The position numbers and the translations under genes were made by a program. Under the pieces are notes generated by a model. The model saw nothing but the letters and a program-made list of their open reading frames with translations, did not search any database and was not told the origin of the DNA. From contig NZ_SMKT01000015.1 in the NCBI RefSeq assembly GCF_004348735.1, positions 1 to 64,000 of the forward strand: 64,000 nt of DNA, written 5' to 3'. Positions within the stretch are counted from its first letter, which is position 1. Every line of letters starts with the position of its first letter. Source of the DNA: Actinomadura sp. KC06. Its GTDB lineage: Bacteria; Actinomycetota; Actinomycetes; Streptosporangiales; Streptosporangiaceae. This document shows, piece after piece, positions 1,430 to 61,123 of the stretch.

Positions 1430-1510
1430 CGTCCGTGACGAACGGCACAGGCCCGCCCCGCTGATCACCGAATAGCATTCCAGAGGTCGACCCGATCTGA
1501 GGGAGCGAAG

Positions 1511-1999
1511 TTGAGCGTCGAGGCGGGCCCCGAGGCCCACCGGCGGGCCGCCGAGCTGTGGAACACGCTGTCGGGCGCGGAGCTGATCCAGGCCATGGCG
1601 GACGGCGAATTCCCCGAGATCTCCGACATCAACCAGCACATCGGGCAGGTCATCACCTCCGCCGAGCCGGGCCGGATCGTCATCTCCTGGACGCCGTCCG
1701 AGCAGCTCTGCAACCCCGGAGGGACCGTCCACGGCGGCTACATCGCCATGATCCTCGACAACGCGGTCTGCCTCGCGGCCACCAGCACCTGCGAGCACTT
1801 CATGCCGATGCTGACGCTGAACCTGAACGTCGACTACCTGCGCGCCGTCCGGACGGGCGAGACGTTCACGGTCACCGGGACGTGCGTGCACGCCGGCGGC
1901 ACCCGCATGGTGTCCAACGCGGCGATCGCCGACGCGCGCGGGCGCACGCTGGCGCAGGCGTCCGCGAGCGTGATCCCGAACAAGGCCTTCGCGCGCTGA
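1511..1999 (+). CDS. PaaI-family hot-dog thioesterase
   Basis: A 162-residue single hot-dog domain protein. The characteristic VHGGYIAMILDNA segment (about residues 76-88) carries the His-Gly-Gly and downstream Asp of the PaaI/YdiI thioesterase family, which hydrolyses acyl- or aryl-acyl-CoA in the cytoplasm. Residues after 130 form the usual closing strands (GTRMVSNAAIADARGR). Translation probably starts at the TTG at 1511, with GGGAG six bases upstream. It lies between the kinase and sppA on the same strand, with gaps of 81 and 63 bases. The substrate cannot be read from the sequence. Confidence 0.88.
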   Translation: MSVEAGPEAHRRAAELWNTLSGAELIQAMADGEFPEISDINQHIGQVITSAEPGRIVISWTPSEQLCNPGGTVHGGYIAMILDNAVCLAATSTCEHFMPMLTLNLNVDYLRAVRTGETFTVTGTCVHAGGTRMVSNAAIADARGRTLAQASASVIPNKAFAR

Positions 2000-2062
2000 C
2001 GGACCGCCCGGCCGGACGCCGGGCGCGGGAAGGCCCCGCGTCCGAGCGCATAGGCTGGGCGC

Positions 2063-3766
2063 ATGGTTGATCCCGGCAACGTCGTCAACGTGATCAAACA
2101 GGCCCGCGACCGGCGGACGGCCCCGCTGATCCTCGAACTCGACCTCACCGAGGGCATCGTCGAGGTCGCGCCGTCCGACCCGATCTCCGCGATCCTGTCC
2201 ATGCGCCGGACGAGCCTGCGGGACGTCCTGGACGGCCTGCGCCGCGCCCGCTCCGACACCCGCGTGCGCGCCCTCGTCGTGAAGGTCTCCGGCGGCATCG
2301 GGCTGGCGCTCGTCCAGGAGCTGCGCGAGGCCGTCCAGGCACTGCGGGACGCGGGCAAGCACACCGTCGCGTGGGCGGAGACGTTCGGTGAGGGCGGGCA
2401 CGGAACCGTGCCGTTCTACCTGGCCACCGTCTTCGACAAGGTGTACCTGCAGCCCACCGGCCAGGTCGGGCTGACCGGCATCGCGATCGAGGAGCCGTTC
2501 CTCGCGGGCGCGCTGGAGAAGGCGGGCGTGCAGCCGAGGTTCGCCAAGCGGCACGAGTACAAGACCATGGCGAACACGTTCATGGAGAAGGCGTACACGC
2601 CGGAGCACGAGGAGTCGTCGCGCCGCCTGGTCGACTCGCTCGGGGAGCAGATCACCGCCGGGATCGCCGCCGGGCGCGGCCTGCCGGAGGACAAGGTCCG
2701 CGAGCTCACCGACCGCGGCCCCCTCCTCGCCGACGAGGCCCTGGAGGAGAACCTCGTCGACCGGCTCGGCTACCGCGACGAGGTGTACGCCGACCTGCGC
2801 GCGGAGTTCGGCGAGGAGGCGCAGCTGCGCTACGTCGCCCGCTACAACCGCGCGCACGGCCTGGCGAGCCGGCTCCCGCAGCCCGGCCGGCAGGACGCCG
2901 TCGCGCTGATCAACGGGCACGGCCCGATCCGGCTCGGCCGCAGCGGGCGCGGCGGCCCGCTCCCGAACTCCGGCCCCGCGATGGGCTCGGACACCATCGG
3001 CGCCGCGTTCCGCGCCGCCGTCAAGGACGACCGGATCAAGGCGATCGTGTTCCGCGTCAACAGCCCCGGCGGCTCCGCGGTCGCGTCCGACGCGATCTGG
3101 CGGGAGGTGGTGCTGGCCCGCCGCGCCGGCAAGCCCGTGATCGTGTCGATGGGCAACGTCGCGGCGTCCGGCGGCTACTACGTGGCGGCGGCCGCCGACA
3201 CGATCGTCGCGCAGCCCGGCACCCTCACCGGCTCGATCGGCGTCGCCACCGGGAAGGCGCTGGTGAACGGGCTCCTCGACCGGATCGGCATCGGCCTCGG
3301 CAGCGTCGCGGTCGGCGAGCACTCCCGCATGTCCAGCGCCACGAAGGACTTCAGCGACTCCGAGTGGGAGCGCGTCAACGCGTCCCTCGACAAGATCTAC
3401 GACGACTTCACCTCGCGGGTCGCCGAGGGGCGCGGGCTGTCCCGCGAGCGCGTCCACGAGGTGGCCAGGGGCCGCGTCTGGACGGGCGCCGACGCCAAGG
3501 AGCGCGGCCTCGTCGACGAGCTCGGCGGCATCGACCTCGCCCTCGACATGGCCCGCAAGAAGTCGGGCCTTGCCGCCGACGCCCCGATCCGCGTGTATCC
3601 GCACACGTCGCCGCTGGAGCGGCTCCGCCCGCCGGAGTCCAGCGAGGACCGCGCCGCCGCGTCCGCCCGCTTCGACGCCTGGGGCTCGCTCGGCGGCCTC
3701 GCCGCCCGGCTCGGCCTGCCCGCCGCCGGCCCGCTGACGCTCCCGGGCACCTGGGAGATCCGCTGA
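2063..3766 (+). CDS. sppA: signal peptide peptidase SppA, 67K type
   Basis: A 567-residue protein with the tandem-domain layout of long-form SppA (peptidase family S49). The N-terminal half contains KRHEYKTMANTFMEKAYT, around the region supplying the catalytic lysine in the E. coli enzyme. The C-terminal half has GNVAASGGYYVAAAADTIVA, carrying the nucleophilic serine, followed by the GTLTGSIGV segment. The family degrades cleaved signal peptides at the membrane. I see no convincing N-terminal membrane helix, so this copy may be cytoplasmic or peripherally bound, as in several actinobacterial homologues. It ends in a TGA that overlaps the proposed CTG start of the next gene. Confidence 0.92.
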   Translation: MVDPGNVVNVIKQARDRRTAPLILELDLTEGIVEVAPSDPISAILSMRRTSLRDVLDGLRRARSDTRVRALVVKVSGGIGLALVQELREAVQALRDAGKHTVAWAETFGEGGHGTVPFYLATVFDKVYLQPTGQVGLTGIAIEEPFLAGALEKAGVQPRFAKRHEYKTMANTFMEKAYTPEHEESSRRLVDSLGEQITAGIAAGRGLPEDKVRELTDRGPLLADEALEENLVDRLGYRDEVYADLRAEFGEEAQLRYVARYNRAHGLASRLPQPGRQDAVALINGHGPIRLGRSGRGGPLPNSGPAMGSDTIGAAFRAAVKDDRIKAIVFRVNSPGGSAVASDAIWREVVLARRAGKPVIVSMGNVAASGGYYVAAAADTIVAQPGTLTGSIGVATGKALVNGLLDRIGIGLGSVAVGEHSRMSSATKDFSDSEWERVNASLDKIYDDFTSRVAEGRGLSRERVHEVARGRVWTGADAKERGLVDELGGIDLALDMARKKSGLAADAPIRVYPHTSPLERLRPPESSEDRAAASARFDAWGSLGGLAARLGLPAAGPLTLPGTWEIR

Positions 3767-4245
3767 CCGCCACGGCCGACTTCGTCGAGGCCGTCGCGGG
3801 CTTCGCCACGGGCGTGGCGGTGCTGACCGTCCGCGACGGCCGCGACGACCTCGGCACGACGGTGACCTCGTTCATGTCGGTGTCGCTCGAACCGCCGATG
3901 GTCGCCGCGGGCGTCGCGACGTCGTCGTACCTGACGGAGGTCCTGAAACGGCGGGACCGCTGGGCCGCGACCGTCCTGTCGTCCGGGCAGCGCGCCCTGG
4001 CAGGACGCTTCGCGGCGGAGGGCCGCCCGAGCGCTCGCATCCTCCTTGCGAGCGCCCCGCACCACCGCGGCACCCACTCGGACGCCCTCATCCCGGAAGC
4101 GGGCGTGTCCGCCCTCGAATGCGAGACCCGCCAGACCGTCGCCGCAGGCGACCACACCCTGTTCGTCGCCGAAGTCCTCGCCGCCGACTACATCGCCCGC
4201 GACGAGAACCCCCTGATCAGAGCCAACCGCCGCTACCTCACCTGA
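3763..4245 (+). CDS. flavin reductase-like FMN-binding protein
   Basis: About 160 residues matching the flavin reductase-like fold: an early [10 protein letters not shown] segment, [14 protein letters not shown] around the FMN phosphate-binding region, and a terminal [11 protein letters not shown]. Family members reduce FMN/FAD with NAD(P)H to supply a monooxygenase, or act as split-barrel FMN proteins. No partner monooxygenase is next to it. No ATG, GTG or TTG fits the expected N-terminus. The best start is the CTG at 3763, which overlaps the sppA stop (CTGA) and suggests translational coupling. The 3' end overlaps the opposing hutI gene by 13 bases. Confidence 0.8.
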
Positions 4246-5444
4246 GCGCCGGCCCTCCAGACGGCGGCGGTCTGGGGGACGCCGGGGCGGTAGGCGAGGT
4301 GGATGTAAGACGGGGCGTCCAGGACGTGCACGTCCGCGCGGGCGCCGACGCCCAGGTGACCGACGTCCGTGCGGCGGAGGGCGCGGGCGCCGCCGGCGGT
4401 CGCGGACCAGACGGCCTCGGCGGGTGTCATGTGCATGTCCCGGACGGCGACGGCGATGCAGAACGCCATGCTGGAGCTGTAGCAGGAGCCGGGGTTGCAG
4501 TCGCAGGCGAGGGCGACGGTCGCGCCCGCGTCGAGGAGGCGGCGGGCGTCGGGGTAGGGCTGGCGGGTGGAGAACTCGACGCCCGGCAGGAGGGTCGCGA
4601 CCGTCCGGGACGACGCCAGCGCGTCCACGTCGGCGTCACTGAGGAACGTGCAGTGGTCGGCGGACGCGGCGTCCACCTCGACGGCGACCTGCACGCCCGG
4701 GCCCTCGGTGAGCTGGTTCGCGTGCACGCGGGGGCGGAGGCCCGCCGCGACGCCCGCTTTCAGGATCTCGCGGGCCTGGTCGGCGTCGAAGGCGCCCTGC
4801 TCGCAGAAGACGTCCACCCAGCGGGCGTGCGGGGCGCAGACCGCCAGCATGTCCGTGGCGGCGAGGCGCGCGTAGCCCGCGGTGTCGCCCTTGTACTCGG
4901 TGGGGACGACGTGCGCCCCGAGGTAGGTGACCTCGTCGGCGAACTCCGCGGCGATGCGGACGGCGCGCTCCTCCTGCTCGACCGTCAGGCCGTACCCGGA
5001 TTTGCATTCGACCGTCGTCGTGCCCTGGCGGGCCATCTCGCCGATGAGGCGGCGGACGTTGGCCCGGAGGTCGTCGTCGGACGCCACCCGGGTGCGTTCC
5101 ACGGTCGTCCGGATGCCGCCGCCGTCGTACTTCTGGCCGCTCATCCGCGCGGCGAACTCCTCGGCGCGCTCACCGGCGAAGACGAGGTGCGCGTGGGAGT
5201 CGACGAAGCCGGGGAGGACGGCGCGTCCGGCGGCGTCGAAGGACTCGTCGGCGGCGGGGGCGCCGGACGCCGGGCCCGTCCACGCGATCCTGCCGTCCTC
5301 GATCACCAGCGCGGCATCGCGGAGGATGCCCAGGCCGGAGCCGGTGGCGGGGTCGTTGGTGACCAGTTCGCCGATGTTGGTGATGACTGTGGTGCCTGTG
5401 CCGGTGCTCATCTTCGGCAGGATCTCACGCATCGTCCGCGTCAT
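4233..5444 (-). CDS. hutI: imidazolonepropionase
   Basis: About 400 residues of the amidohydrolase superfamily, catalysing 4-imidazolone-5-propionate to N-formimino-L-glutamate, step 3 of histidine degradation. Visible signatures are the metal-binding [10 protein letters not shown] motif, the KSGYGL segment typical of HutI, a mid-protein HANQ, and DCNPGS near the C-terminus. The ATG at 5444 overlaps the hutF stop (ATGA). Internal ATGs at 5432 and 5411 are possible, and the conserved region begins soon after the latter. It is the last gene of the hut operon and converges on the flavin reductase gene. Confidence 0.95.
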
Positions 5445-6796
5445 TCCGGCTCGGGTGCGGTGACGGCGGCGATGGCCTCGTCGAGCGCGCCCGGGACGTC
5501 GTCGATCAGCAGGTGGCGCCCGTCGTGGACGATCTGCCGCCCGGACACCACCACATGCCGGACGTCGGCGGCCGTAGCGGCGAACACGGCCGCCTCGGCG
5601 GCGTAGTCGGCGGTGGCCCCGGCGGTGCGGACGGAGTCGAGCGCGACGGTGACGAGGTCCGCATACGCGCCGGGCTCCAGCCGTCCCGCCTCCGGCCAGC
5701 CGAGCCCGTAGTGTCCGTTGGACGTGGCCGCGGCGAGCAGTTCCCCGGCCGTCCAGTGGCCCCGGACGCGGGTGCGGAGACGCTCGTCCAGCTCGACCGC
5801 GCGGGCCTCCTCGAACAGGTCGACGACGGCGTGCTGGTCGGAGCCGAGGCAGACCGGCGAGCCCGCGTCCGCCAGGTCGCGGGCCGGGCCGATGCCGTCG
5901 GCGAGGTCCCGTTCGGTGGTCGGGCACATGCAGACGCCGGTCATCGTCGTCCCGAGGAGGCCGATGTCGTCGCCGGTGAGATGCGTCGCGTGGACGGCCG
6001 TGGTCAGCGCGCCCAGCGCCCCCGATTCGGCGAGCAGGCGGGTCGGGGTCATGTCGTAGGCGTCCAGGCACGCCTCGTTCTCGGCGGGCTGCTCGGACAG
6101 GTGGACGTGCAGCGGCGCACGGTGCTCCTTCGCCCACGACGCGACCGCGCTGAGCTGCTCGCGCGGCACGGCCCGGACGGAATGGATCGCGGCGCCGACA
6201 CGGGCGTGGAGCCGTCCGGCCTTGCCGGTCTCCTCGTGCAGGCTGCCGACGCGGCGCGCCCAGTTGCCCGCGGTGCCGTCGCCGAAGCGCAGTTGCGGGC
6301 CCTTGAGCGGCTCGCCGATGCCGCCGGCGAGGTAGCAGGCGTCGAGGAGGGTGATCCGGATGCCCGCGTCCGCCGCGGCGGCGATCAGCGCCTCGCCCAT
6401 CGCGTTCGGCTCGTCGTACGGGGCGCCGCCCGGACGGTGGTGCAGGTAGTGGAACTCGCCGACGCAGCTGATCCCGGCCAGGGCCATCTCCGCGTACACG
6501 GCGGCGGCGAGCGCGCGGTACGAATCGGGGTCGAGGCGGTCGGCGACCTTGTACATCGTGTCGCGCCACGTCCAGAAATTCCCGGAATGGGCCTGGACGC
6601 GGGAGCGGAGCGCCCGGTGGAAGGCGTGCGAGTGCGCGTTGGCCAGCCCCGGCAGCGTCAGGCCGGGCAGCCGCTGGGCGTTCTCCGGCGCGGGGACGCC
6701 GGGCGCGACGCGCGTGATCCGCTCGCCGTCGGCCTCGATGAGCACATCGGCCGCCACGCCGTCTCCGAGCCAGGCCAGTTGTGCATGCCACTGCAT
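5441..6796 (-). CDS. hutF: formimidoylglutamate deiminase
   Basis: A 451-residue amidohydrolase that converts N-formimino-L-glutamate to N-formyl-L-glutamate and ammonia. The sequence begins [13 protein letters not shown] and carries the [10 protein letters not shown] motif of HutF (metal ligands and substrate-binding region), [10 protein letters not shown], and a C-terminal [16 protein letters not shown] segment typical of the family. Its presence shows the two-step formylglutamate route, not the single-step formamide-releasing HutG route. It lies 10 bases after the M20 amidohydrolase gene and overlaps hutI by four bases. Confidence 0.94.
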
Positions 6797-6806
6797 ACCG
6801 AAATCC

Positions 6807-8021
6807 TTACCCGCACGCCCTGGCACTACAAGCAAGGTCGTCCAGTACCGCCGTGAGGGCCTCGACCCCGGCCAGGCAGTCCGCGGGTTCGGCGCACTCG
6901 GCGGGCGCGTGCGAGACCCCGGTCGGGTTGCGGACGAACAGCATCGCCGTCGGCAGCCGCGCCGAGAGGACGCCCGCGTCGTGCCCCGCACCGGTCGGCA
7001 GGACGGGAACGCCGCCCAGCGTCGCGCCGATCCGGTCACGCAGGGCGTGGTTGAAGTCGACGATCTCCGAATAGGACTCCTCGGCGAGATCGACGCTCAC
7101 CCGATGCGGGCGAGCGGCGACCCGGGCCGCCTCGTCGATCTCCGCGACCGTCCGCCGGACGGCCTCGTCCCGCGGTCCCCGGGCGTCCAGCCAGCCGGTC
7201 ACGGACGAGGCGATCGCGTTCACCCCGCCCGGCACGACCCGCACCTTCCCCACGGTCGCGACGGTTCCGTTGCGTTCGGCCGCCTCCCGCGCGGCGATGA
7301 CCATGGCGGCGAAGGGCAGCATGGGGTCGCGCCGGTCGGGCAGCCCGGTCGTCCCGGCGTGGTTTCCCTCGCCGCCGAAGTCGAACCGCCACCGCCCGTG
7401 CGGGACGATCGCGCTCGCCACCCCGACCGGCTCCCGCAGCGCCCGCCCCTGCTCGACGTGCAGCTCGACCAGGCATCCGATGCGTCCGAGCAGGCCGTCG
7501 TCGGGGCCGATCGCCGCGGGGTCGAACCCGGCGTTGTGCATGACCTCGGCGAACGTGTGACCGTCCGCGTCGGTGAGGCCGCGGGCCCGCGCCGGGTCGA
7601 TCGCCCCGGCCAGTAGCCGCGACCCCAGGCACGCGACCCCGAACCGCGCGCCCTCTTCCTCGGCGAACGCCGCGATCCCGATCGGGCGTCGCAGCGCGGT
7701 GCCCCGCTCGCGGAGCAGATCGACGGCGGCGAAGGCGGACACGATGCCGAGGGGCCCGTCGAACGCGCCGCCCCCCGGCACCGAGTCCAGGTGGCTCCCG
7801 GTCAGAACGGCATCGCCGCGCGAGCCGTCGGCCGGGAGCCACCAGGCGATCATGTTGCCGTTCGCGTCGTGCTCGACGTCCAGGTCGCGGCGGCGTGCCT
7901 CGTCCAGGAACCAGGCGCGGCATTCCAGCTCGGGCGGCGTCCACGCGAACCGGTGGTAGCCGCCGGTCGCCTCGTCCCGGCCGACCGGCAGCAGCGCCGC
8001 CCACATCTCCTCGAAGCTCAT
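6807..8021 (-). CDS. M20-family amidohydrolase (allantoate amidohydrolase/N-carbamoylase-like) in the hut operon
   Basis: A 404-residue M20 metallopeptidase-fold enzyme of the allantoate amidohydrolase, beta-ureidopropionase and N-carbamoyl-amino-acid hydrolase group. Visible motifs include TGSHLDSVPGGGAFDGPLG (metal His and Asp), EEEGARFG (catalytic Glu and metal ligand), ELHVEQG, GNHAGTTGLPDR in the lid domain, and a late GAGHDAG. It sits between hutU and hutF (gaps 40 and 10 bases). I recall the same order in Streptomyces hut clusters. No HutG is present, so I infer that it removes the formyl group from N-formyl-L-glutamate. Sequence alone would suggest an N-carbamoyl or allantoate substrate. 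The purine cluster at 43-52 kb uses allantoicase and does not need it. Confidence 0.85.
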   Translation of the reverse strand: MSFEEMWAALLPVGRDEATGGYHRFAWTPPELECRAWFLDEARRRDLDVEHDANGNMIAWWLPADGSRGDAVLTGSHLDSVPGGGAFDGPLGIVSAFAAVDLLRERGTALRRPIGIAAFAEEEGARFGVACLGSRLLAGAIDPARARGLTDADGHTFAEVMHNAGFDPAAIGPDDGLLGRIGCLVELHVEQGRALREPVGVASAIVPHGRWRFDFGGEGNHAGTTGLPDRRDPMLPFAAMVIAAREAAERNGTVATVGKVRVVPGGVNAIASSVTGWLDARGPRDEAVRRTVAEIDEAARVAARPHRVSVDLAEESYSEIVDFNHALRDRIGATLGGVPVLPTGAGHDAGVLSARLPTAMLFVRNPTGVSHAPAECAEPADCLAGVEALTAVLDDLACSARACG

Positions 8022-51605: not shown

Positions 51606-52057
51606 GATCTCCGCTCCCCCGCCAGCCTGGTCAGACGAAGATCCACGATCTTCGCGAGCTCCCTCCGGACGACGGCCCGCTCGGCCTCGGCGTCGTTGCC
51701 CAGGCGATCCCGGAGGTCGCCGAGCATCTCCGCGGCGGTGCGTCCCGTCGCGCAGATCAGGAACACGTGGCCGAAGCGGTCCTCATAGGCTCGGTTCCCC
51801 TCGATGAGGGCGGCACGCACGTCCGGGGCCGCGCCGTCCATGCCCGACTGCTCGGCCCGCGACCAGCCCCCCACGCGGTCGCCGATGCGGGGATGGGCGG
51901 CGAGGGCCTCCTCCACGTCGGGCCAATCGAGGTCGTCCAGCGCCGCGGCCCCGGCTTCGCGCAGCTCGGTCAGGTCGCGATAGCGCCGTCCCGCGACCGC
52001 CTTCACCCAGCGGCGGGACGCGCAGCACTCGAACAGGTCCGCTTCCGTGAACAGCAC
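51602..52057 (-). CDS. OHCU decarboxylase
   Basis: A 151-residue all-helical enzyme that decarboxylates 2-oxo-4-hydroxy-4-carboxy-5-ureidoimidazoline to S-allantoin. AAHPRIGDRVGG carries the conserved catalytic His and the HPRIG motif, and YEDRFGHVFLICATGRTAAEML is the second conserved block. It is the first gene of the purine operon, divergent from pucR across 111 bases. Confidence 0.94.
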   Translation of the reverse strand: MLFTEADLFECCASRRWVKAVAGRRYRDLTELREAGAAALDDLDWPDVEEALAAHPRIGDRVGGWSRAEQSGMDGAAPDVRAALIEGNRAYEDRFGHVFLICATGRTAAEMLGDLRDRLGNDAEAERAVVRRELAKIVDLRLTRLAGERRS

Positions 52058-52153
52058 CCGCGCCTCCCTCGTTGCATGCAGTACACACAGCCGCCCGTGC
52101 GGTGGTCGAGAGACAGGACGTCCGAACTGTGCTGCCGTTCGACCGCGACCCTT

Positions 52154-52167
52154 TGTAGGTTGCTACA
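52154..52167. promoter_or_regulatory. TGTAG-GTTG-CTACA dyad before pucR
   Basis: A five-base inverted repeat with a four-base spacer ends one base before the PucR GTG. It lies in the 111-base region that must hold promoters for both PucR and the purine operon, so it is a candidate operator. Confidence is modest because the arms are short. Confidence 0.4.
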
Positions 52168-52168
52168 T

Positions 52169-53677
52169 GTGAAGCTGCGCGCCCTGCTCGCCATGCCCGA
52201 ACTGCGGCTTGAGGTCGTCGTCGGGGATGACGCCGGGCTGGACCGGCCGATCCGCTGGGTCGTCACCACAGACCTCCTCCACCCCGGCCGCTACCTGCGC
52301 GGACGGGAACTGATCCTCACCGGCCTCGTCTGGCGGTCGGGCCCCGCGGACTCCGAGACCTTCGTCCGCGCCCTCGCCGACGCCGGCGTGTCGGGCCTCG
52401 CGGCGGGGGAGTTCGCCCTCGGCACCATTCCGGACGATCTCGTCGACGCCTGCCGCCGGCACCGGCTCCCGCTGTTCAAGGTCCCGGAGGACGTGGCGTT
52501 CGCGACGGTCACCGAGGAGGTCGTCCGGCATCTGTCCGGCGCCCGCGCCGCCGATCTGACCGCCGTCCTGGACCGGCACCGCCGACTCGTCGAGGGCACC
52601 GGGCTCGGCGCCGTCCTCGACCTGGTCGGACGCGACCTCGGCATGCGCTGCCACGTCCTGACCGCCACCGGGCGGCTCGTCGCCGGTCCGCGGCTGCCCG
52701 ACGCCGACGCCGCCCGGCTGGCCGGGGCCTTCCTCCGCGCGCCCCGCCTGCCCGAGTACGCGGCCGGTCTCGACGCGTCGATCTTCCCGGTCGGCGAGGG
52801 GGCCCGGAGCCGGGCGGCCGGCTGGTTCATCGCGTGCGAGGGCGACTTCGCCGACTGGCCCGCGGAGCGCCGCGCCCTCACGGGCGAACTCGCCGCCATC
52901 GTCGCGCTTGAGCGGGCTCGGCTGGACGACCGGCTGAGCGACGAGGGCCGCCGCGCCCAGGAGATCGTGACCGCCGTCGCGACCGGTGGCGGCGGGCTCG
53001 GAAACGCCGGTGAGCTGGAGCGATCCGGGTTGGCCGCCGGAGTCCCCGTGGCCGCGGTCGCCGCTTCGGGACGGGACGGGACGGACGCGGGCGAGCTGCG
53101 CACCGTCCTCGCCGAGATCCTTGCGGGTGCGCGGCCGATGGTCGGCCTGGTGGACGACGAGGTCATCGCCCTGGTCCCGGCGCCGGCCGGCGACGATGTC
53201 GCCGGTGCGATCGAGGACGCGCTGAACGCCCTGGCTCCGGGCCTCGCGGGCGGCGGTGCCGCGGTCGGAGTCAGCGGCATCGCCGAGGCGCCGGACCTGC
53301 GCGGCATCGTCGAAGAGGCCCGCCAGGCGCGCCGGCTCGCGGCCACCCGTTCTTCTCCCGTGTGCGTCGTCCGGCACGACGAGCTCGCCACTCATGTCCT
53401 GCTGCTGGCCAGCGTTCCCGATGACGTCCGGGAGATGTTCAGAGTGCGTCTCCTGGATCCGCTGCATGCTTATGACAAGGTGCACGGCGCCGACCTCGTC
53501 CGGACGCTGGAGACGTTCCTGCGGCATTCCGGGTCTTGGACGCGCGCCGCCGACGAGCTCCATTTGCACGTCAATTCGGTGCGCTATCGCATTCAGCGCG
53601 TCCAGGATCTGACCGGCCGCGACCTGTCGCGACTTGAGGACCAGGTCGACTTCTTCCTCGCCCTTCGGCTCGGATAG
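52169..53677 (+). CDS. PucR-family transcriptional regulator of purine catabolism
   Basis: A 502-residue regulator with an N-terminal PucR sensor domain (LEVVVGDDAGLDRPIRWVVTTDLLHPGRYLRGRELILTG, residues about 12-120), a central GGDEF-like region, and a C-terminal HTH (VRTLETFLRHSGSWTRAADELHLHVNSVRYRIQRVQDLTGRDL type). PucR proteins usually activate purine genes in response to allantoin-type metabolites. Divergence from the uricase/xanthine dehydrogenase operon supports this role. The GTG at 52169 follows the dyad; the protein starts directly with the conserved domain. Confidence 0.92.
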   Translation: MKLRALLAMPELRLEVVVGDDAGLDRPIRWVVTTDLLHPGRYLRGRELILTGLVWRSGPADSETFVRALADAGVSGLAAGEFALGTIPDDLVDACRRHRLPLFKVPEDVAFATVTEEVVRHLSGARAADLTAVLDRHRRLVEGTGLGAVLDLVGRDLGMRCHVLTATGRLVAGPRLPDADAARLAGAFLRAPRLPEYAAGLDASIFPVGEGARSRAAGWFIACEGDFADWPAERRALTGELAAIVALERARLDDRLSDEGRRAQEIVTAVATGGGGLGNAGELERSGLAAGVPVAAVAASGRDGTDAGELRTVLAEILAGARPMVGLVDDEVIALVPAPAGDDVAGAIEDALNALAPGLAGGGAAVGVSGIAEAPDLRGIVEEARQARRLAATRSSPVCVVRHDELATHVLLLASVPDDVREMFRVRLLDPLHAYDKVHGADLVRTLETFLRHSGSWTRAADELHLHVNSVRYRIQRVQDLTGRDLSRLEDQVDFFLALRLG

Positions 53678-54112: not shown

Positions 54113-54973
54113 TCAGGACGTGTGGCGCAGGATGGCCGGGACGACTTCGTCCCACGTCCGCCGTGGAAGTTCATTGCCCATCCCGGAGACGGTCAGCAAT
54201 TCGGCACCGGGAATTTCGGCCGCCAGCGCCTCGCCGTTGCCGAGCGGGAAGAACGCGTCGTCCTCGCCATGGATCACGAGGGTCGGCGCGGAGATGCCGC
54301 CCAGGCGCTCTCGCCAGCGGGGTTTGCTGTCGAGGGCGGCGAAGACGGTCGCCATCTGATTGGCGCGGTGGGCCTTGCCCGGGTCGGGTGTTGCGGGCGT
54401 CCGGTCGTAGATCCGTTCGATGTCCTCGCGCGCCTCGTCCTCATCGAAGAACTTGCCGGAAAGATGGCGGGCGCTCTCGATCATGAAGGCGACCACGGAG
54501 GCGCGGTCCGTCCAGTCGACCTCGGGCGGGTTCATGAAGTGCGCCATCAGCTCGGGTGCGTGCTCGGGCAGGTCGGCGTCGTTAGGGCCGGGCGCGGTGG
54601 GCCTGGTGGCGATCAGCGTGAGCGTGGTGACGCGGGCGGGGTGGTCGAGGGCGAGGAGCTGCGCGATCCAGCCGCCGACGCCGAAGCCCACGACGTGCGC
54701 GGACGGCAGGTCGTGGGCGTCGAGCACCCCGGCGGCGTCCGCCACCAGGTCGCGCAGCGTGTAGGCGGGGGCCTCGGGGTCGGCGAACGTGGACCGGCCG
54801 GTGTCGCGCAGGTCGTACCGGACGACGAACCTCCGCAGCGCGGCGACGCGCCCGCAGAGGTCGTCGGGCCAGGTGAGCATCGTGTTGCCGATCAGCAGGA
54901 CGGGCGCGTCACCCGGATCGCCGAACGTCTCGGCGCACAGTTCCACCCCGTTGGCCTTGATGAATTTCTCCAT
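54113..54973 (-). CDS. alpha/beta hydrolase-fold protein lacking catalytic Ser and His
   Basis: A 286-residue protein resembling RdmC-type methylesterases or other alpha/beta hydrolases (IKANGVELCAETFGDP, then YDLRDTGRS, then ALDHPARVTTLTLI). Two triad residues are replaced. The nucleophile elbow reads G96-F-G98-V-G100 where G-x-S-x-G is expected, and the C-terminal GMGH motif reads GMGN (Asn267). The acid position (GEDDAFFP, about 238) remains. The gene is otherwise intact, so it may bind a ligand, scaffold, or use another chemistry. It lies 30 bases after the ClpN/HTH gene and may be in its operon. Confidence 0.8.
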   Translation of the reverse strand: MEKFIKANGVELCAETFGDPGDAPVLLIGNTMLTWPDDLCGRVAALRRFVVRYDLRDTGRSTFADPEAPAYTLRDLVADAAGVLDAHDLPSAHVVGFGVGGWIAQLLALDHPARVTTLTLIATRPTAPGPNDADLPEHAPELMAHFMNPPEVDWTDRASVVAFMIESARHLSGKFFDEDEAREDIERIYDRTPATPDPGKAHRANQMATVFAALDSKPRWRERLGGISAPTLVIHGEDDAFFPLGNGEALAAEIPGAELLTVSGMGNELPRRTWDEVVPAILRHTS

Positions 54974-55003
54974 GATGGGTTGGACTGCCCGGGCGTCCGA
55001 AAC

Positions 55004-55726
55004 TCATCCCTGCTTGGCCATGGCGTTCAGGGCCTCGGTGATGTTCGCCTCGGCGGCGGCCTTGTCGATGCCGAGATCGGAGAGGACGCCGGATCCGTCC
55101 TCGAACTCCAGGAGGGCGAGGAGCATGTGCTCGGTGCCGATGTAGTTGTGCCCGAGGCGGAGGGCCTCGCGGAACGTCAGCTCCATCGCCTTCTTCGCGT
55201 CCGCGTCGTACGGGATGAGGTCGGGGACGTCGTCCGCCTCCGGCGGAAGCGCGGCGGTGGCGGCCTGGCGGACGTCGTCGAGCAGGACGCCCTGCGCGAG
55301 GATCGCCTTGGCGGCGAGCGCCTTCGGCTCCGACAGCAGGCCGAGCACGATGTGCACGGGCCGGATCTGGTCGTTGCCCGCCGCCTTGGCCTCGTTCATC
55401 GACGCCATGACGACGTCGCGGGCCCGCGCGGTGAACCGGGAGAAGCCCTGGGACGGGTCGAGGTCGCCCTGCCCCTTCGGCACGAAGCGCTTCTGCGCCG
55501 CCTGCTTGCTGACGCCCATGCTCTTGCCGATGTCCGTCCAGGACGCGCCGGAGCGCCTGGCCTGGTCGACGAAGTGGCCGATGAGATGGTCGGCGACCTC
55601 GCCGAGGTGCTCGGCGGCGACGACGGCGCTGGACAGCTGTTCGAGGGCGTCGGTATGGACCTTCTTGATGGCGTTGATCAGGTCGTCGAGGCGGACCTGA
55701 CCGGTCGGCTGCACGGGTTCGGTCAT
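55004..55726 (-). CDS. HTH and Clp-N repeat protein
   Basis: A 240-residue protein joining an N-terminal helical/HTH part (about residues 25-85, with SGASWTDIGKSMGVSKQAAQKRF as the HTH) to two Clp R-domain repeats (about 95-145 and 170-235: RPVHIVLGLLSEPKALA and YIGTEHMLLALLEFEDG). It has no AAA+ module, so it is not a Clp ATPase. The ClpN repeats may bind a Clp partner or a degradation signal while the HTH binds DNA. Two 19-base palindromes start two bases upstream of the ATG, suggesting autoregulation and perhaps a leaderless transcript. Confidence 0.85.
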   Translation of the reverse strand: MTEPVQPTGQVRLDDLINAIKKVHTDALEQLSSAVVAAEHLGEVADHLIGHFVDQARRSGASWTDIGKSMGVSKQAAQKRFVPKGQGDLDPSQGFSRFTARARDVVMASMNEAKAAGNDQIRPVHIVLGLLSEPKALAAKAILAQGVLLDDVRQAATAALPPEADDVPDLIPYDADAKKAMELTFREALRLGHNYIGTEHMLLALLEFEDGSGVLSDLGIDKAAAEANITEALNAMAKQG

Positions 55727-55775: not shown

Positions 55776-56693
55776 TCACCAGGAGGCGGCGCCGGTGAAC
55801 GTCGTCTCGTGCGGGTCGTAGCCGAGGACGGTACGGGCGGCGGTGATGTCGAGGGTCCGCTCGACGGCCAGGTGGCTGATCGCGTAGCGGGTGACGCGCG
55901 GTGGCCGTGGGCTCCGGGCCAGCAGGAACGCGCCTTCGGCGACGGCGGCGAGCGGACGCGCGGCGGCGGCGGGGACGTACACGGGCCTCGCCCGGACGCC
56001 CCGTTCGCGGAGGATCCCGCGCAGCGCGCCGTCGATCGTGATCGGGGCCGCGTCCGCGATGTTGAACACGCCCGCGGCGACGGGTCCGGTCGCGGCGAGC
56101 ACGCAGGCCCGGACGAGGTTGCCGATCGAGGTCAGGCTGACGCGCTGCCGTCCCGTCCCGGCGGCCGGGAGGACCGGGCCGCGCACGGCCGACAGCACGC
56201 GCGGCAGCAGCGTCGCGTCGCCGGGCCCGTAGACCGCGTGGGGACGCAGAATGATCGCGTCGCGGGGCACGGCCCGTTCGGCGGCGGCCTTGGACGCGCC
56301 GTAGGCGTTCAGGTAGCGGCGGACGGGCGCCTCGTCCTCGGTGGCCATCACGCTCGGACGGAACGGGTCGTACACGCTGGCCGTGCTGACGTGCACGAAC
56401 CTCGCGCCGGGAAAGCTCGCGAGGGCGTTGCGGGTTCCGGTGAGGTTGGCGGCGAACAGGCCCGCGGCCGGGCCCCAATCGGTGGCGCTCCCGGCGCAGT
56501 GGATCACCGCGTCGACGCCGGGGGCGTCCGCGAGCGCGCCGCGGGCGAGGTCCCATGACCGGTAGGCCGCGCCGCCGAGGTCGCCGGGATCCGGACGGCG
56601 GCCGTACGCGAACGTCGTGACGCCCTCTGCCGCGAGCGTCCTGCAGACCGCGCCGCCGACGAAGCCGGACGCGCCCGTCACCGCGATCTTCAT
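55776..56693 (-). CDS. OleD-like NAD(P)-dependent reductase (extended SDR)
   Basis: A 305-residue extended short-chain dehydrogenase. The Rossmann motif is VTGASGFVGGAV (residues 5-16). The segment HCAGSATDWGPAAGLFAANLTGTRNAL and the STASVY active-site serine region with downstream YGASK (Tyr-x-x-x-Lys) are present. OleD, the 2-alkyl-3-ketoalkanoate reductase of head-to-head hydrocarbon synthesis, has similar WGP and ANxxGT motifs. I assign OleD-like mainly from the neighbouring OleA-like and OleC-like genes. It could instead be a sugar epimerase. The start overlaps the ligase stop by four bases. Confidence 0.75.
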   Translation of the reverse strand: MKIAVTGASGFVGGAVCRTLAAEGVTTFAYGRRPDPGDLGGAAYRSWDLARGALADAPGVDAVIHCAGSATDWGPAAGLFAANLTGTRNALASFPGARFVHVSTASVYDPFRPSVMATEDEAPVRRYLNAYGASKAAAERAVPRDAIILRPHAVYGPGDATLLPRVLSAVRGPVLPAAGTGRQRVSLTSIGNLVRACVLAATGPVAAGVFNIADAAPITIDGALRGILRERGVRARPVYVPAAAARPLAAVAEGAFLLARSPRPPRVTRYAISHLAVERTLDITAARTVLGYDPHETTFTGAASW

Positions 56694-58204
56694 TCGGTCA
56701 CCAGGTCGCGGAGGCGGTCGCGGTCGAGCTTGCGCGTCCGGCCGGAGCGCGGCAGCTCGTCCAGGACGACGATGCGGTCCGGCAGCGCGTCGTGATCGAT
56801 GACGTCGGGGAGGCTGCGCCGGAGCCGTCCCGGAAGATCATCTGGACCGACGACCGCCAGCACCACCTCCTCGTCCCCGGTGGCGGCGTCGGGCACGCCC
56901 ACGATCGCGGCCTCCGCCACGCCGGGAAGCGCGGCGATCGACGGCTCGTACAGCCCTGGATAAAGGTTGAACTTGCCCCGGATCAGCATGTCCTTCTTGC
57001 GTCCCATGAGGATGAGGCGGCCGTCGTCGAACCGCGCGAGGTCGCCGGTCGGCAGTTCGGAGACGGGCTCGGCGCCGAGGTATCCGCGGCACAGGTTCGG
57101 GCCGGACAGCAGCAGCTCGCCGTCGCCGGCCAGCCGGGCGGCGACGCCGGGCAGCGGCCGTCCGAGAAGATCGCCGGGCGCGGTGCGGGCGGCGTGGGCG
57201 AGTTTCTCCTCCGCCGACGCGATCGCCACCGGCAGGATCTCCGTCATCGCGTAGACGGACAGGACCTCGGCGGACGGCGCCGCCGCGACGGCCCGCCGGA
57301 GGATCGCGGCCGGTGCGGGCGCGGCGCCGAGCAGCACGTACCGCAGCGTCGGCGGCAGGTCCGGCGAAGCGTCCAGGATCTCGGCCAGGTGGACGGGAAC
57401 GCAGAACGCGTGCGTGGCCTCCCGTTCCCGCATCAGCCGGGCGTCGTCGGCGGGGGTGCGCGACAGCGGCGGCATCGACCAGCGCGCCCCGGCCACCAGC
57501 GCGGGCAGCCCGATCATGAGCTGGTCGGTGTGGACGACGTCGCCCGGGCCGAGCGGCATCCGCGTCCGGAACAGGTCGAGCGCCGCCGCCAGCGACGCCT
57601 GGGTGTGCACGACGGCGCGCGGGTCCGACGTCGTCCCGGACGTGAAGATCACCGCGGCCGGCGCGTCCGGATCGCCGTCGGAGGCGGGCTCGGGCGCGTC
57701 GCCGCCCACGAGGCGCTGGAACGGCAGCGAGCCTCGCGGCACGCCCGGCAACCGGCGGCCGACGTGGATGTGCCGCATCGGGCCCTCGCCCGGAACCTGC
57801 AGGTCCGCGAAGTTCGGCAGCAGCAGCCCGCGCCGCCGCGCGTACGCCCGGACAGGCCGCAGGCGGCTGCCCGCGTACAGGACGGATTCCGCCGCCGACC
57901 AGCGCGGGCGCGCCAGCCTCAGCCGCGCGGTGAACATCTCGGGACCGGCCCCGGGATCGGCGAACACCACTACTCCGCCGGCCGCGACCACGCCCAGCGC
58001 CAGCACGAGCGACTCCGGCGAGGGCCGGACGGAGAACAGCACCCCGTCACCGGACGCCAGCCCGGCGGCGAGCAGCCCGCGGCGGACGGCGAGCACCTGC
58101 CGCCGCAGCTCGCCGTAGGTGAGTTCCGCGCCGTCCCCCGAGACGAGCGCGACGCCGCCGGGCGTCCGGGCCGCCTGGTCCAGCAGGCATCGGACGAGAG
58201 TCAC
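56690..58204 (-). CDS. OleC-like AMP-dependent ligase (putative beta-lactone synthetase)
   Basis: A 504-residue ANL-superfamily enzyme. The P-loop is IFTSGTTSDPRAVVHT, the A5 region VYAMTEILPVAIASAEEK, and the A7-A10 region is TGDLARFDDG, MGRKKDMLIRGKFNLYPG and SGRTRKLDRD (the usual catalytic Lys region). TExLPV followed by xxGRPLPG is a pattern I associate with OleC, which makes beta-lactones from beta-hydroxy acids using ATP. Without that context it would be called a fatty-acyl-AMP/CoA ligase. The GTG at 58204 overlaps the P450 stop. Confidence 0.78.
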   Translation of the reverse strand: MTLVRCLLDQAARTPGGVALVSGDGAELTYGELRRQVLAVRRGLLAAGLASGDGVLFSVRPSPESLVLALGVVAAGGVVVFADPGAGPEMFTARLRLARPRWSAAESVLYAGSRLRPVRAYARRRGLLLPNFADLQVPGEGPMRHIHVGRRLPGVPRGSLPFQRLVGGDAPEPASDGDPDAPAAVIFTSGTTSDPRAVVHTQASLAAALDLFRTRMPLGPGDVVHTDQLMIGLPALVAGARWSMPPLSRTPADDARLMREREATHAFCVPVHLAEILDASPDLPPTLRYVLLGAAPAPAAILRRAVAAAPSAEVLSVYAMTEILPVAIASAEEKLAHAARTAPGDLLGRPLPGVAARLAGDGELLLSGPNLCRGYLGAEPVSELPTGDLARFDDGRLILMGRKKDMLIRGKFNLYPGLYEPSIAALPGVAEAAIVGVPDAATGDEEVVLAVVGPDDLPGRLRRSLPDVIDHDALPDRIVVLDELPRSGRTRKLDRDRLRDLVTE

Positions 58205-59370
58205 CCCGTTCCCCTTCCCGCACGGACGGCGAGATGCCGATACGTCGGAATCAGGACGCCCCGGGCGGCGGCGCGGCGCGTGACCGTGAGCGGCCCGGCG
58301 GCGAGGAGCGTCCGGGCGACCAGCCGGATCTGTGCCGTGGCCAGCGGATATCCGAGGCAGAAGTGCGGCCCCGCGCCGAACCACAGCCGCCGCAGCTCGG
58401 GCGGGTGCGGACGGTCGAGATCGAACGGCCCGAGGGCGCGGCAGCAGTTGTGCGTCGCGATCAGGATCCGGTCCCCCGGCCGCACCGCGACGCCCCCGAC
58501 CGCCACCGCGCGGTGCACGCTCCGCAACATGACCGGTGTCGGCGTCGTCACCCGCATGGCCTCGTCGACGGCCCGGTCGAGCATCGCCGCGCCGCCGGCG
58601 GCGACGCGTGCGAGCTGCCCGTGGTCGGCGAGGAGGGCGATCAGGCGCGGCAGGAGCGTCGCGACCGTCTCGGTGCCGGTCAGGAAGAACGCCCCGGCGG
58701 CTCCCCGCGCCTCGTCCTCCGAGAGGCCGAGCGTCCGCATCCGTCCCATGACCGTGGACTCGTCCCCCGCCGCGTACGCCTTGGCGGCGATGTCGCCCAG
58801 CGGATCGAGCACGGCCCGGGCCCGCCGTACCTGGGACGGGGACAGCCGCCGCGTCCGCAGCGAGACCATCGAGACGATGCGCTCACCCTGCTCGAACAGA
58901 TCGCGGTAGGCCGATTCGGTCCTGGTCTCCAGGCCGATGACCTCGCCGATCACCGCTCCGGCCAGCACGCGGGCCGCGTCCACCAGGTCGACGGTCGCGC
59001 CGTCCCGGAGACGGCCGGTGAGCCGCGCCAAGGGCTCGTCCAGCACCCGCGCGCACAACGCCTCGGTATAGGACGGCACGAACAGATCGGCCAGCCGCCG
59101 GCGCAGTACCCGGTGCGCCTCCCCCTCCATGTTGAGCAGCACAGAAGGCCCCAGGACCGGCGTCCACAGCTCGCCCGGAGATCCGGGGCCGTCCTTCCGG
59201 AACGTCTCGCCGTCCATCAGGATCCCGCGGGCCAGCGACGCGTCGTTCACCACCACACCGACTCCCGGCACGCGCACGACCGGCCCGCGCCGAGCCGCGG
59301 CGCACAGCAGCGGATACGCGAACGGATGCGCCGTCACATAGAGGCGCCGTTCCCAGTCGCGGACCTTCAC
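58201..59370 (-). CDS. cytochrome P450
   Basis: A 389-residue class I P450 with the I-helix LTGTETVATLL (acid/Thr proton relay), the K-helix EAMR (ExxR), and the haem-binding FGAGPHFCLGYPLA with the Cys ligand. It lacks a membrane anchor, as in other bacterial P450s. Placed between the ligase and glycosyltransferase genes with four-base overlaps on both sides, it most likely hydroxylates the lipid-like product of the cluster. No ferredoxin gene is adjacent. Confidence 0.93.
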   Translation of the reverse strand: MKVRDWERRLYVTAHPFAYPLLCAAARRGPVVRVPGVGVVVNDASLARGILMDGETFRKDGPGSPGELWTPVLGPSVLLNMEGEAHRVLRRRLADLFVPSYTEALCARVLDEPLARLTGRLRDGATVDLVDAARVLAGAVIGEVIGLETRTESAYRDLFEQGERIVSMVSLRTRRLSPSQVRRARAVLDPLGDIAAKAYAAGDESTVMGRMRTLGLSEDEARGAAGAFFLTGTETVATLLPRLIALLADHGQLARVAAGGAAMLDRAVDEAMRVTTPTPVMLRSVHRAVAVGGVAVRPGDRILIATHNCCRALGPFDLDRPHPPELRRLWFGAGPHFCLGYPLATAQIRLVARTLLAAGPLTVTRRAAARGVLIPTYRHLAVRAGRGTG

Positions 59371-60119
59371 CGGACGTCCACCACGGGCGGCCGGTATCGG
59401 TGGTCGGCGTACCAGCCCAGCGTCCTGACCAGGCCGTACGCCCGCAGGCGGCGGACCGACCCGTAGACGACGACGTCCTTGCGCAGCCCGTACGCCCCGC
59501 TGACGCGGCGGACGCGGTTGACGAGCGCGCGGTCCTCGTGGACGTCCTCGATGCGACTGCGCGGGAAGCCGCCCGCCCGCTCGTACAGGTCGGCGGTGAT
59601 GGCAAGGTTGCAGCCCGGCATCATCACGTACGGGCCGAGGTAGAGCGGGTCCTGGTTGCCGGGCCTGAAGCGTCCGAACAGCGCGGCGAGATCGATGACG
59701 GCGGGCAGCAGGCGGCGCTCCCAGAACTTCAGCGGGAACTCGTCGGTGCGCGGCAGCAGCGGCCCGGACACCAGCTCCAGGCCGTCGCCGAACGCGCGCC
59801 TCACCGCCGCGACCCAGCCGTGGTGCGGGAGGCAGTCGGCGTCGGTGCGGGCGACGTGCGTGGCCCCGGCGGCGATGGCGTGCCGGACGCCGGTGTCGGC
59901 GGCGGCGCCCGTCCCCTTCTCCGGTTCGCGGACGATCCGGACGTCGAACGCGCCGTTCCCGGCCGCGAACTCCTTGACGACCTGCGCCGTCCCGTCCGTG
60001 CTGCCGTTGTCGACGACGGCGAGCGTGAACCCGAGGTCGGTCTGCTCGGCGAGGCGGCGCAGCGTCGCGCCGATCGAGCGTTCCTCGTCGTAGGCGGGGA
60101 TGACGACCCAGAGTCTCAT
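59367..60119 (-). CDS. family 2 glycosyltransferase
   Basis: A 250-residue GT-A fold protein. It begins VIPAYDEERSIGATLRRL, with NGSTDGTAQVV, and has RTDADCLPHHGW (DxD-like metal/nucleotide-sugar site) and DVHEDRALVNRV (ED catalytic region). A hydrophobic patch (PAVIDLAALFGRF and YVMMPGCNLAI) could sit at the membrane. The ATG at 60119 has GGAG eight bases upstream; GTG 60125 overlapping the ketosynthase stop is an alternative. It may add a sugar to the operon product. Confidence 0.9.
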   Translation of the reverse strand: MRLWVVIPAYDEERSIGATLRRLAEQTDLGFTLAVVDNGSTDGTAQVVKEFAAGNGAFDVRIVREPEKGTGAAADTGVRHAIAAGATHVARTDADCLPHHGWVAAVRRAFGDGLELVSGPLLPRTDEFPLKFWERRLLPAVIDLAALFGRFRPGNQDPLYLGPYVMMPGCNLAITADLYERAGGFPRSRIEDVHEDRALVNRVRRVSGAYGLRKDVVVYGSVRRLRAYGLVRTLGWYADHRYRPPVVDVR

Positions 60120-60121
60120 GG

Positions 60122-61123
60122 TCACAGCTCCGCGAACATGACGCCGAGGCTGATGCCGCCCGCCAGGCCGATCAGCGCGACGCGGTCGCCGGGCGCGCAG
60201 CGCCCTTCGGCGATCGCGGTGGCGAGCTGCAACGGCAGGCTCGCGGACGCGGCGTTCCCGTGCTCGGGCAGCGTCACGACAAGGCGATCGGCCGGAATGC
60301 CAAGGGTCGAGCGCAGCACCTCCAGATACGGCACGGTCACCTGGTGGACGGCGACGACCGCGAAGTCGTCCCAGGTCAGGCCCGTCTTCTGCAGTGCGGT
60401 GCTGAAGAGTTCCGCGCCTCCCGCGACGAACGCGTCCTTGAGCCGCCGCCCGTCCCCGCTGAAGTAGGTGAACTCGGGGTCGCGGGGATGCATCGAGCCG
60501 CCCGCCGGGAGCGTCCCGATCCGCCAGGCGGCGGAGACGGCGGCGAAGTCGCGGTAGAAGATCCCGCCGTCCGGGGCCGCCTCGACGAGCATCGCGGCGC
60601 CGCCGTCGGACAGGGTGTAGCCGGCGAAGGCGTCCGCGAACTGGGCGCGGTCGCGCACCTTCCAGCGGATCGCGCGGGACGGGCTCTCGCCCGTGCAGAC
60701 CAGGACCCGCTCGTGCTGCCCTGTGCGGATCAGCGCGTCCGCCATCTGCAGCGCGTTCAGGAAGCTGTTGCACGCGTTCTTGACGTCGAAGACCGGGCAG
60801 GACGCGCCGAGCTTCGCGGCGACGATGTGCGCGGTGGCGGGCTCGATCAGGTCCTGCGACGCCGATCCGAAGATCAGCAGGTCTAGCCCGGCGGGGTGCG
60901 TCCCGCGCTCGGCGAGCACGTGGCGGGCGGCGGCGACCGCCAGGTCGGACGCCTGCTCCTCGTCCCCCATGACGTGCCGGGTCCGGATTCCGGTCAGCCG
61001 CCGGACGATCGTGGAAGGCGGGCGGTAACCGCCGCTCTCGGCCGCGACGCGCGCCTCCACCTCGGCGCTGGTGACCGTCCGGCCGGGCAGGTGCGCCGCG
61101 ACGGCGGTGATGCGGGCTCTCAT
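60122..61123 (-). CDS. OleA-like ketosynthase (KAS III fold)
   Basis: A 333-residue thiolase-superfamily enzyme with the Cys-His-Asn set: Cys118 in FDVKNACNSF, His260 in VVAVHQVTVP and Asn290 in LPEHGNAAS. An acidic residue, Glu94 in DLIEPATAHIV, lies 24 residues before the Cys. OleA carries the equivalent Glu at -26 (Glu117 before Cys143, from memory), which drives head-to-head Claisen condensation of two acyl-CoAs, while FabH has Phe there. This supports an OleA-like role but not strongly. It is the first gene of the five-gene operon. Confidence 0.78.
   Translation of the reverse strand: MRARITAVAAHLPGRTVTSAEVEARVAAESGGYRPPSTIVRRLTGIRTRHVMGDEEQASDLAVAAARHVLAERGTHPAGLDLLIFGSASQDLIEPATAHIVAAKLGASCPVFDVKNACNSFLNALQMADALIRTGQHERVLVCTGESPSRAIRWKVRDRAQFADAFAGYTLSDGGAAMLVEAAPDGGIFYRDFAAVSAAWRIGTLPAGGSMHPRDPEFTYFSGDGRRLKDAFVAGGAELFSTALQKTGLTWDDFAVVAVHQVTVPYLEVLRSTLGIPADRLVVTLPEHGNAASASLPLQLATAIAEGRCAPGDRVALIGLAGGISLGVMFAEL

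Follow-up and report, generated by a model that had tools for sequence, protein, structure and literature searches.

A conserved five-gene operon of Actinomadura sp. KC06 uniting OleA-, OleC- and OleD-like genes with a glycosyltransferase and a cytochrome P450

What does a compact operon produce when relatives of the ole genes are joined in it with a glycosyltransferase and a cytochrome P450? The question is raised by five minus-strand genes of Actinomadura sp. KC06, running from position 61123 to 55776 of the window, the whole 64,000-nucleotide stretch of DNA analysed here (assembly GCF_004348735.1, contig NZ_SMKT01000015.1, positions 1 to 64,000). The genes follow one another closely, with a 2-base gap at one junction and 4-base overlaps at the other three, and are, from the first to the last:

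60122..61123, minus strand: ketosynthase of the ketosynthase III (KS III) fold, OleA superclade; ATG start, 333 amino acids (aa); Pfam ACP_syn_III; Cys118, His260, Asn290 and Glu94-Pro95
59367..60119, minus strand: family 2 glycosyltransferase (GT2); ATG start, 250 aa; 2-base gap after the ketosynthase; Glycos_transf_2 match at 1.1e-21; D-A-D motif
58201..59370, minus strand: cytochrome P450; GTG start, 389 aa; 4-base overlap with the GT2 gene; Pfam p450
56690..58204, minus strand: AMP-forming ligase; GTG start, 504 aa; 4-base overlap with the P450 gene; Pfam AMP-binding; TEILPV motif
55776..56693, minus strand: extended short-chain dehydrogenase/reductase (SDR); ATG start, 305 aa; 4-base overlap with the ligase gene; Pfam Epimerase; YxxxK catalytic motif

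A preceding sequence-only reading had placed five overlapping or touching genes here, and the coordinates, the junctions and the Pfam type of each gene agree with it. The P450 carries a canonical TGTET I-helix together with ExxR and FGAGPHFCLG heme motifs. The five-gene operon is real, conserved and already described in kind; the window operon differs from the described kind in gene order, lineage and tailoring set. A scan for promoters and terminators gave no useful signal.

Conservation was evaluated in 80 named loci, the best 80 of 260 relatives found. The order ketosynthase (A), glycosyltransferase (GT), P450, ligase (C) and reductase (D) on one strand was kept in 72 of them, so the five genes do co-occur in relatives with shared order and orientation; in nine of these 72 loci one or more genes lay in two pieces, which were merged before the count. 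Approximate junction gaps were at most 60 bases in 63-68 of the 72 loci, depending on the junction, with medians of about -4 to -6 bases. Chance is excluded as the source of the arrangement, since order and orientation are kept in 72/80 loci with mostly close junctions. The other eight comprised four Nonomuraea loci with A, P450 and D only, two loci that end early on their contigs (L075 and L100, 1,940 and 3,895 bases past the ketosynthase), one with an inverted ligase gene (L096), and one in which the ketosynthase stands alone and GT, P450, C and D lie on another contig (L070, with L192). The flanking Clp_N, hydrolase, small unassigned and thiolase genes of the window were rejected as parts of the operon, being present in only 26, 26, 27 and 33 of the 80 loci, respectively; the conserved unit is therefore the five genes.

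The nearest named relatives belong to Actinomadura species, and the ketosynthase is 93% identical in Actinomadura sp. KC216. Within the genus, 55 other genomes were sampled, and 50 of them carry a ketosynthase orthologue of at least 78% identity. The order-wide draw gave a ketosynthase match at E <= 1e-40 in 131/297 genomes (KC06 and paralogous ketosynthases included), and the phylum-wide draw gave a match at E <= 1e-60 in 3/396, KC06 included. Among the Micromonosporaceae, the family of Catellatospora coxensis, 67 of 200 genomes matched at E <= 1e-40, of which 11 at 62-75% and 56 at 45-52% identity. The gene set is thus patchy across the phylum and close to core in the sampled genus.

Two gene orders were distinguished. 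Type 1, that of the window, is A-GT-P450-C-D; type 2 is A-GT-C-P450-D, which was seen in Micromonosporaceae and in another family, represented by two genomes. For type 2, 19 loci were used, 17 of them chosen by hand from the 56 Micromonosporaceae matches of lower identity and two taken from the phylum-wide draw; for type 1, the protein sets combined the window with L152 and 25 of the 80 named loci, chosen by hand for spread.

The choice between OleA and FabH for the ketosynthase was approached through active-site residues and trees. The OleA-like Glu94 pointed out in the sequence-only reading is present, and Cys118, His260, Asn290 and Glu94-Pro95 were invariant in all 17 aligned ketosynthases; they were also aligned with 3fk5 and with 12 ole-operon OleA proteins. 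We take 3fk5 to be an OleA orthologue, also in view of its likeness to 3row, which is titled OleA. The Glu-Pro motif was found in 27/27 type-1, 19/19 type-2, 7/7 paralogue and 12/12 ole-operon ketosynthases, and in none of four distinct FabH-like proteins of the KC06 genome (five rows, two of them identical). With broad KS III outgroups, the window ketosynthase and OleA were joined at 100/97 (45 rows) and 100/100 (43 rows), the lineage being sister to the ole-operon OleA clade and not nested inside it. The root side of this tree was weak (FabH-type clade 68/46 with 45 rows), and some outgroups were long. The 45-row tree excluded L240 and L177 and the 43-row run also L247 and L249; in the preceding broad tree, groups were thinned, and four lineage rows and the short L244 were left out. 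The first trees, with few outgroups, had comprised three unrooted groups and carried no sister information, after which the ketosynthase and ligase sets were enlarged. Placement of the ketosynthase in the FabH clade and of the ligase in the FadD clade, both named as alternatives in the sequence-only reading, was rejected, since the trees with broad outgroups group these proteins with OleA and OleC.

Further information came from paralogues. In five loci of the same taxonomic order (L120, L121, L124, L125 and L128) the ketosynthase branches inside the window lineage, and four of the seven paralogue loci (L120, L121, L124 and L128) encode with it, in the order A-C-D-B, a ligase of the OleC clade, a reductase of the OleD clade and an OleB-like protein (B). 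In L125, C-D-B are nearby and the ketosynthase is apart on the other strand, and L119 (KC06) and L129 have no C-D-B set. The L124 ligase scored 527.7 bits with PRK09274 (cut-off 478) and 541.8 of 900 with the Xanthomonas OleC model, and its reductase scored 393.5 of 580 with the OleD model. The hydrolases of the five loci are 43-48% identical to the hydrolase between A and C in ole-type locus L166 and match best, below cut-off, with models of haloalkane dehalogenases, the enzyme family of OleB. The ole-operon controls were 18 of 24 OleD-model matches, 12 of the 18 with a ketosynthase match; in four, the gene that separates A from C was inspected by eye. Because ketosynthases of its lineage stand in ole-type operons of A-C-D-B order, the window ketosynthase is likely to perform OleA chemistry. 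At L119 (contig C103, about 702-7747), the paralogous OleA-like ketosynthase gene stands between a P450 gene immediately upstream and a wax ester synthase/diacylglycerol acyltransferase (WS/DGAT) gene downstream; a type III polyketide synthase (PKS)-like enzyme and SDR-like open reading frames (ORFs) were seen near it by eye, and the region looks like another orphan lipid cluster.

The TEILPV motif reported for the ligase is present. With 25 other AMP-binding enzymes of KC06 as outgroup, the ligase and OleC were joined at 100/99 as sister lineages, and with 28 of the genome's 67 AMP-binding matches the grouping had an SH-aLRT value of 96; the ligase is the closest relative of OleC in the tree. 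The pattern TE-x-L/F/M-P is common to the ligase lineage and 14/15 OleC rows and occurs in 0/4 FadD-like rows, while K-x-D-R, present in the ligase but in only 5/15 OleC rows, says little. Loci L167, L169 and L070 were omitted from the ligase sets, as their best match was not the operon ligase; the first ligase tree also lacked L145, L151, L154, L160 and part of type 1. For the 28-outgroup tree the short L217 and L219 were dropped from 30 fetched sequences, and for the 25-outgroup tree eleven rows were thinned.

For the reductase, the best NCBIfam model was that of OleD (NF042422, 121.4 bits), followed by a second OleD model (117.5 bits) and HpnA (50 bits). Its closeness to OleD rests on these model scores, since the reductase tree, from which L145 was left out, had only SDRs picked by the OleD model as its outgroup.

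An OleB-like gene does not adjoin the operon, as had been read from the sequence: the downstream alpha/beta hydrolase (54113-54973) matches best with macrolide-esterase models, below their cut-offs. A search of the whole KC06 genome with an OleB-like query gave two matches at E <= 1e-15, both on other contigs, one 34% identical (77.7 bits) and one 37% identical over part of its length (74.1 bits). The latter, on contig C40 (16063-19118), stands beside two KS III genes, and the copy read has no Glu-Pro. Downstream of the operon on the same strand (54113-55726), the macrolide-esterase-like hydrolase is accompanied by a Clp_N protein. Further on, a PucR-type purine catabolism regulator was found at 51857-53677, preceded by ORFs that look by eye like purine catabolism enzymes (xanthine dehydrogenase-like).

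The sequence-only reading knew of no operon combining GT2 and P450 genes with ole genes. This does not hold, as one article (mBio 2020, PMC7064751) describes OleA, glycosyltransferase, OleC, cytochrome P450 and OleD, with no OleB, in Actinoplanes atraurantiacus. The route predicted there comprises condensation, reduction, hydroxylation, glycosylation and ring closure to a beta-lactone, and the Actinoplanes OleA was active on p-nitrophenyl hexanoate (PMC7064751). The five gene kinds, the lack of OleB and the predicted chemistry are shared with the window operon; the listed order differs, being GT-OleC-P450 in Actinoplanes and GT-P450-ligase in the window, in a comparison by description and not by sequence (PMC7064751). 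From its family and this order, the Actinoplanes OleA probably belongs to type 2, the sister of the window type. Compared with oleABCD olefin operons, the window operon is similar in that its ketosynthase and ligase group with OleA and OleC and its reductase has OleD as best model; it differs in having no convincing OleB, in carrying GT2 and P450 genes and in scoring below the model cut-offs. The oleACD clusters of Nocardia brasiliensis and Streptomyces toxytricini carry the gene names nlt and lst. These clusters (nocardiolactone and lipstatin) likewise have an ACD core without oleB, but the passages on them name no GT2 or P450, again by description (PMC7064751). L177, apparently of the oleACD kind, has A and C separated by an ORF that looked thiolase-like by eye, and a search of its 18 kb at E <= 1e-6 yielded neither a GT nor a P450. 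No other paper on the five-gene set was recognised among the open-licence papers listed, and in a review of about 230 Actinomadura metabolites, words beginning with "lactone" were confined to one passage, on a gamma-lactone. New here are the two gene orders, the GT copy number of 0-2, a divergent second P450, and the presence of lineage ketosynthases inside oleA-C-D-B-like operons.

The tailoring genes vary around this core. In the loci examined, no gene is absent or duplicated as often as that of the glycosyltransferase: among the 19 type-2 loci it has no copy in 2, one in 10 and two in 7, and no GT2 match at E <= 1e-30 was found in the four Nonomuraea genomes with the short A, P450, D locus. 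Glycosylation thus appears to be a tailoring step that varies while the core is conserved. In Nonomuraea dietziae (L102), by contrast, the five-gene set is complete, and type-2 locus L145 gave no reductase match above the score used. The acid-alcohol motif of the P450 I-helix ([AGT]Gx[ED]T) occurred in 26/26 type-1 and 1/17 type-2 proteins, the sole type-2 match (L158) being an extra P450 on the opposite strand; L154 was omitted from the GT and L070 from the P450 motif counts. In the type-2 P450s (L122, L146-L163), N-T or a similar pair replaces the I-helix acid-Thr pair and the heme Cys motif is kept (17/17), and judging by these residues they may not be ordinary monooxygenases. In 41 of the 80 named loci, among them loci of Actinomadura, Actinocorallia, Catellatospora and Hamadaea, a second P450 gene, divergently oriented, precedes the ketosynthase gene at a distance of 84-346 bases (865 in L069); the one in L041 (8580-9743) is 37-41% identical to operon P450s among the matches listed. 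Of the loci without it, five show a P450 match at about 1.1-1.2 kb upstream that is much weaker, and for some (L040, L049) the upstream sequence is too short to judge. The second P450 is absent beside the window operon, and no orthologue was found in KC06, where a search at E <= 1e-20 gave the operon P450 and nothing else; in L037, the closest relative, it is missing too. One tailoring step was likely lost in the line of the KC06 strain.

Gene content, co-conservation, intact catalytic residues, the grouping with OleA and OleC and the lack of a convincing OleB together suggest an OleB-less ole-type pathway with two decorating enzymes. For the whole route, from condensation to a glycosylated beta-lactone, we would put the chances at just under even. 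The ketosynthase would join two acyl-coenzyme A (CoA) molecules by non-decarboxylative Claisen condensation to a 2-alkyl-3-keto acid, with one chain bound to Cys118 and the other subunit's Glu94 acting as the base. According to PMC7064751, Glu of one subunit is the base in the other, the mechanism is called unique to OleA homologues, and Glu is followed by Pro in all but two of the OleA proteins aligned. The SDR would then reduce the keto acid to a 2-alkyl-3-hydroxy acid, the ligase would adenylate it and the neighbouring hydroxyl would attack to form the beta-lactone; the P450 may hydroxylate the acyl chain, and the GT2 may add a sugar to it. A glycosylated beta-lactone would be a plausible product.

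Several findings weigh against this route. The Ole assignments of the sequence-only reading held for the grouping of ketosynthase and ligase with OleA and OleC; these are, however, sister lineages, all three proteins score below curated cut-offs, and the tree shows no sister relation of the reductase to OleD, placing it outside the OleD clade and outside the further SDRs picked by the OleD model. The ketosynthase reached 171.3 bits against a cut-off of 285 with the OleA model PRK09258 (OleA of L166: 423.7 bits), the ligase 83.6 against 900 with NF045786 (OleC) and 122.5 against 478 with PRK09274, and the reductase the 121.4 bits given above against 580. Control ligases (L166, L177 and L124) scored 498-542 bits with NF045786, also below 900, and 528-598 bits with PRK09274; OleD proteins of ole-type operons, at 416 and 394 bits, were also under 580. 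Fold searches with the ketosynthase structure model (predicted local distance difference test, pLDDT, 83.9) do not separate OleA from FabH, and the matches listed for the ligase model (pLDDT 87.8) are CoA, aryl-acid and amide ligases and domains of nonribosomal peptide synthetases. A DxRH stretch near the C-terminal lysine is present in 15/15 OleC rows and 0/26 displayed rows of the ligase lineage; it was noticed in this analysis, and we know of no published criterion of this kind. In four Nonomuraea genomes the ligase orthologue sits with ATP-grasp and GNAT genes, away from the ketosynthase. The purified Actinoplanes OleA, obtained in small quantity, is reported to have shown no reaction with any acyl-CoA tried, of C8-C16 (PMC7064751).

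The ligase, OleC's sister and not OleC, is the weakest link of the beta-lactone route, and its ATP-grasp and GNAT neighbours make a conjugation role possible. In L188-L191, the four Nonomuraea loci concerned, its gene is preceded by genes for an ATP-grasp_3 protein and a GNAT-type transferase (Pfam run on L188 only). Condensation and reduction might proceed as proposed and the ligase activate the hydroxy acid for transfer, as a CoA thioester, ester or amide, the product then being a long-chain hydroxy acid in glycosylated or conjugated form, such as a lipid of the envelope; such an outcome is possible, if on the unlikely side. It agrees with a sister clade outside OleC that lacks the DxRH stretch, with the suggestive Nonomuraea neighbours, with amide bond synthetases among the top Foldseek matches, and with presence in 50 of 55 congeners, which suits a structural lipid better than a sporadic antibiotic. 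The ligase nevertheless shares TE-x-L/F/M-P with OleC and not with the FadD-like rows and is the closest OleC relative in the tree, and the fold search is insensitive here, with no solved OleC among the matches listed.

It is improbable that the ketosynthase resembles Ole proteins only superficially and, like FabH, starts the synthesis of a polyketide or a branched fatty acid. Its score with the FabH-type model PRK09352 (183.9 bits) slightly exceeds that with PRK09258, and its best PDB matches by E-value are FabH; yet PRK09352 outscores PRK09258 (163.7 vs 158.4 bits) for the ketosynthase of the ole-type operon in L124 as well, both enlarged trees join the window protein to OleA, Glu-Pro is invariant in the lineage and absent from the FabH-like enzymes of KC06, and the five-gene unit holds no acyl carrier protein or PKS. 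Degraded or merely co-located lipid genes without a joint pathway are very improbable: the inverted ligase of L096, the separate ketosynthase of L070 and the genes in two pieces in nine of the 72 five-gene loci would fit them, but order and direction are kept in 72/80 loci with overlapping median junctions, and two deep types conserve the same gene content.

The OleB-less ole-type pathway would thus be an orphan pathway present in 50/55 sampled Actinomadura relatives, and we know of no product of it. Only tentatively can it be extended to a near-core, lineage-wide family of beta-lactone lipids, hydroxylated and glycosylated, that enzymes sister to OleA and OleC and an OleD-like reductase would make in Actinomadura, Streptosporangiaceae and Micromonosporaceae, the sugar and a second oxidation varying by species. 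Loci that have naturally gained or lost glycosyltransferase and P450 genes offer ready comparisons for reading each step. If the products are reactive beta-lactones, these bacteria carry a class of covalent inhibitors so far not isolated; if they are envelope lipids, a basic feature of these cells has so far gone unrecognised.

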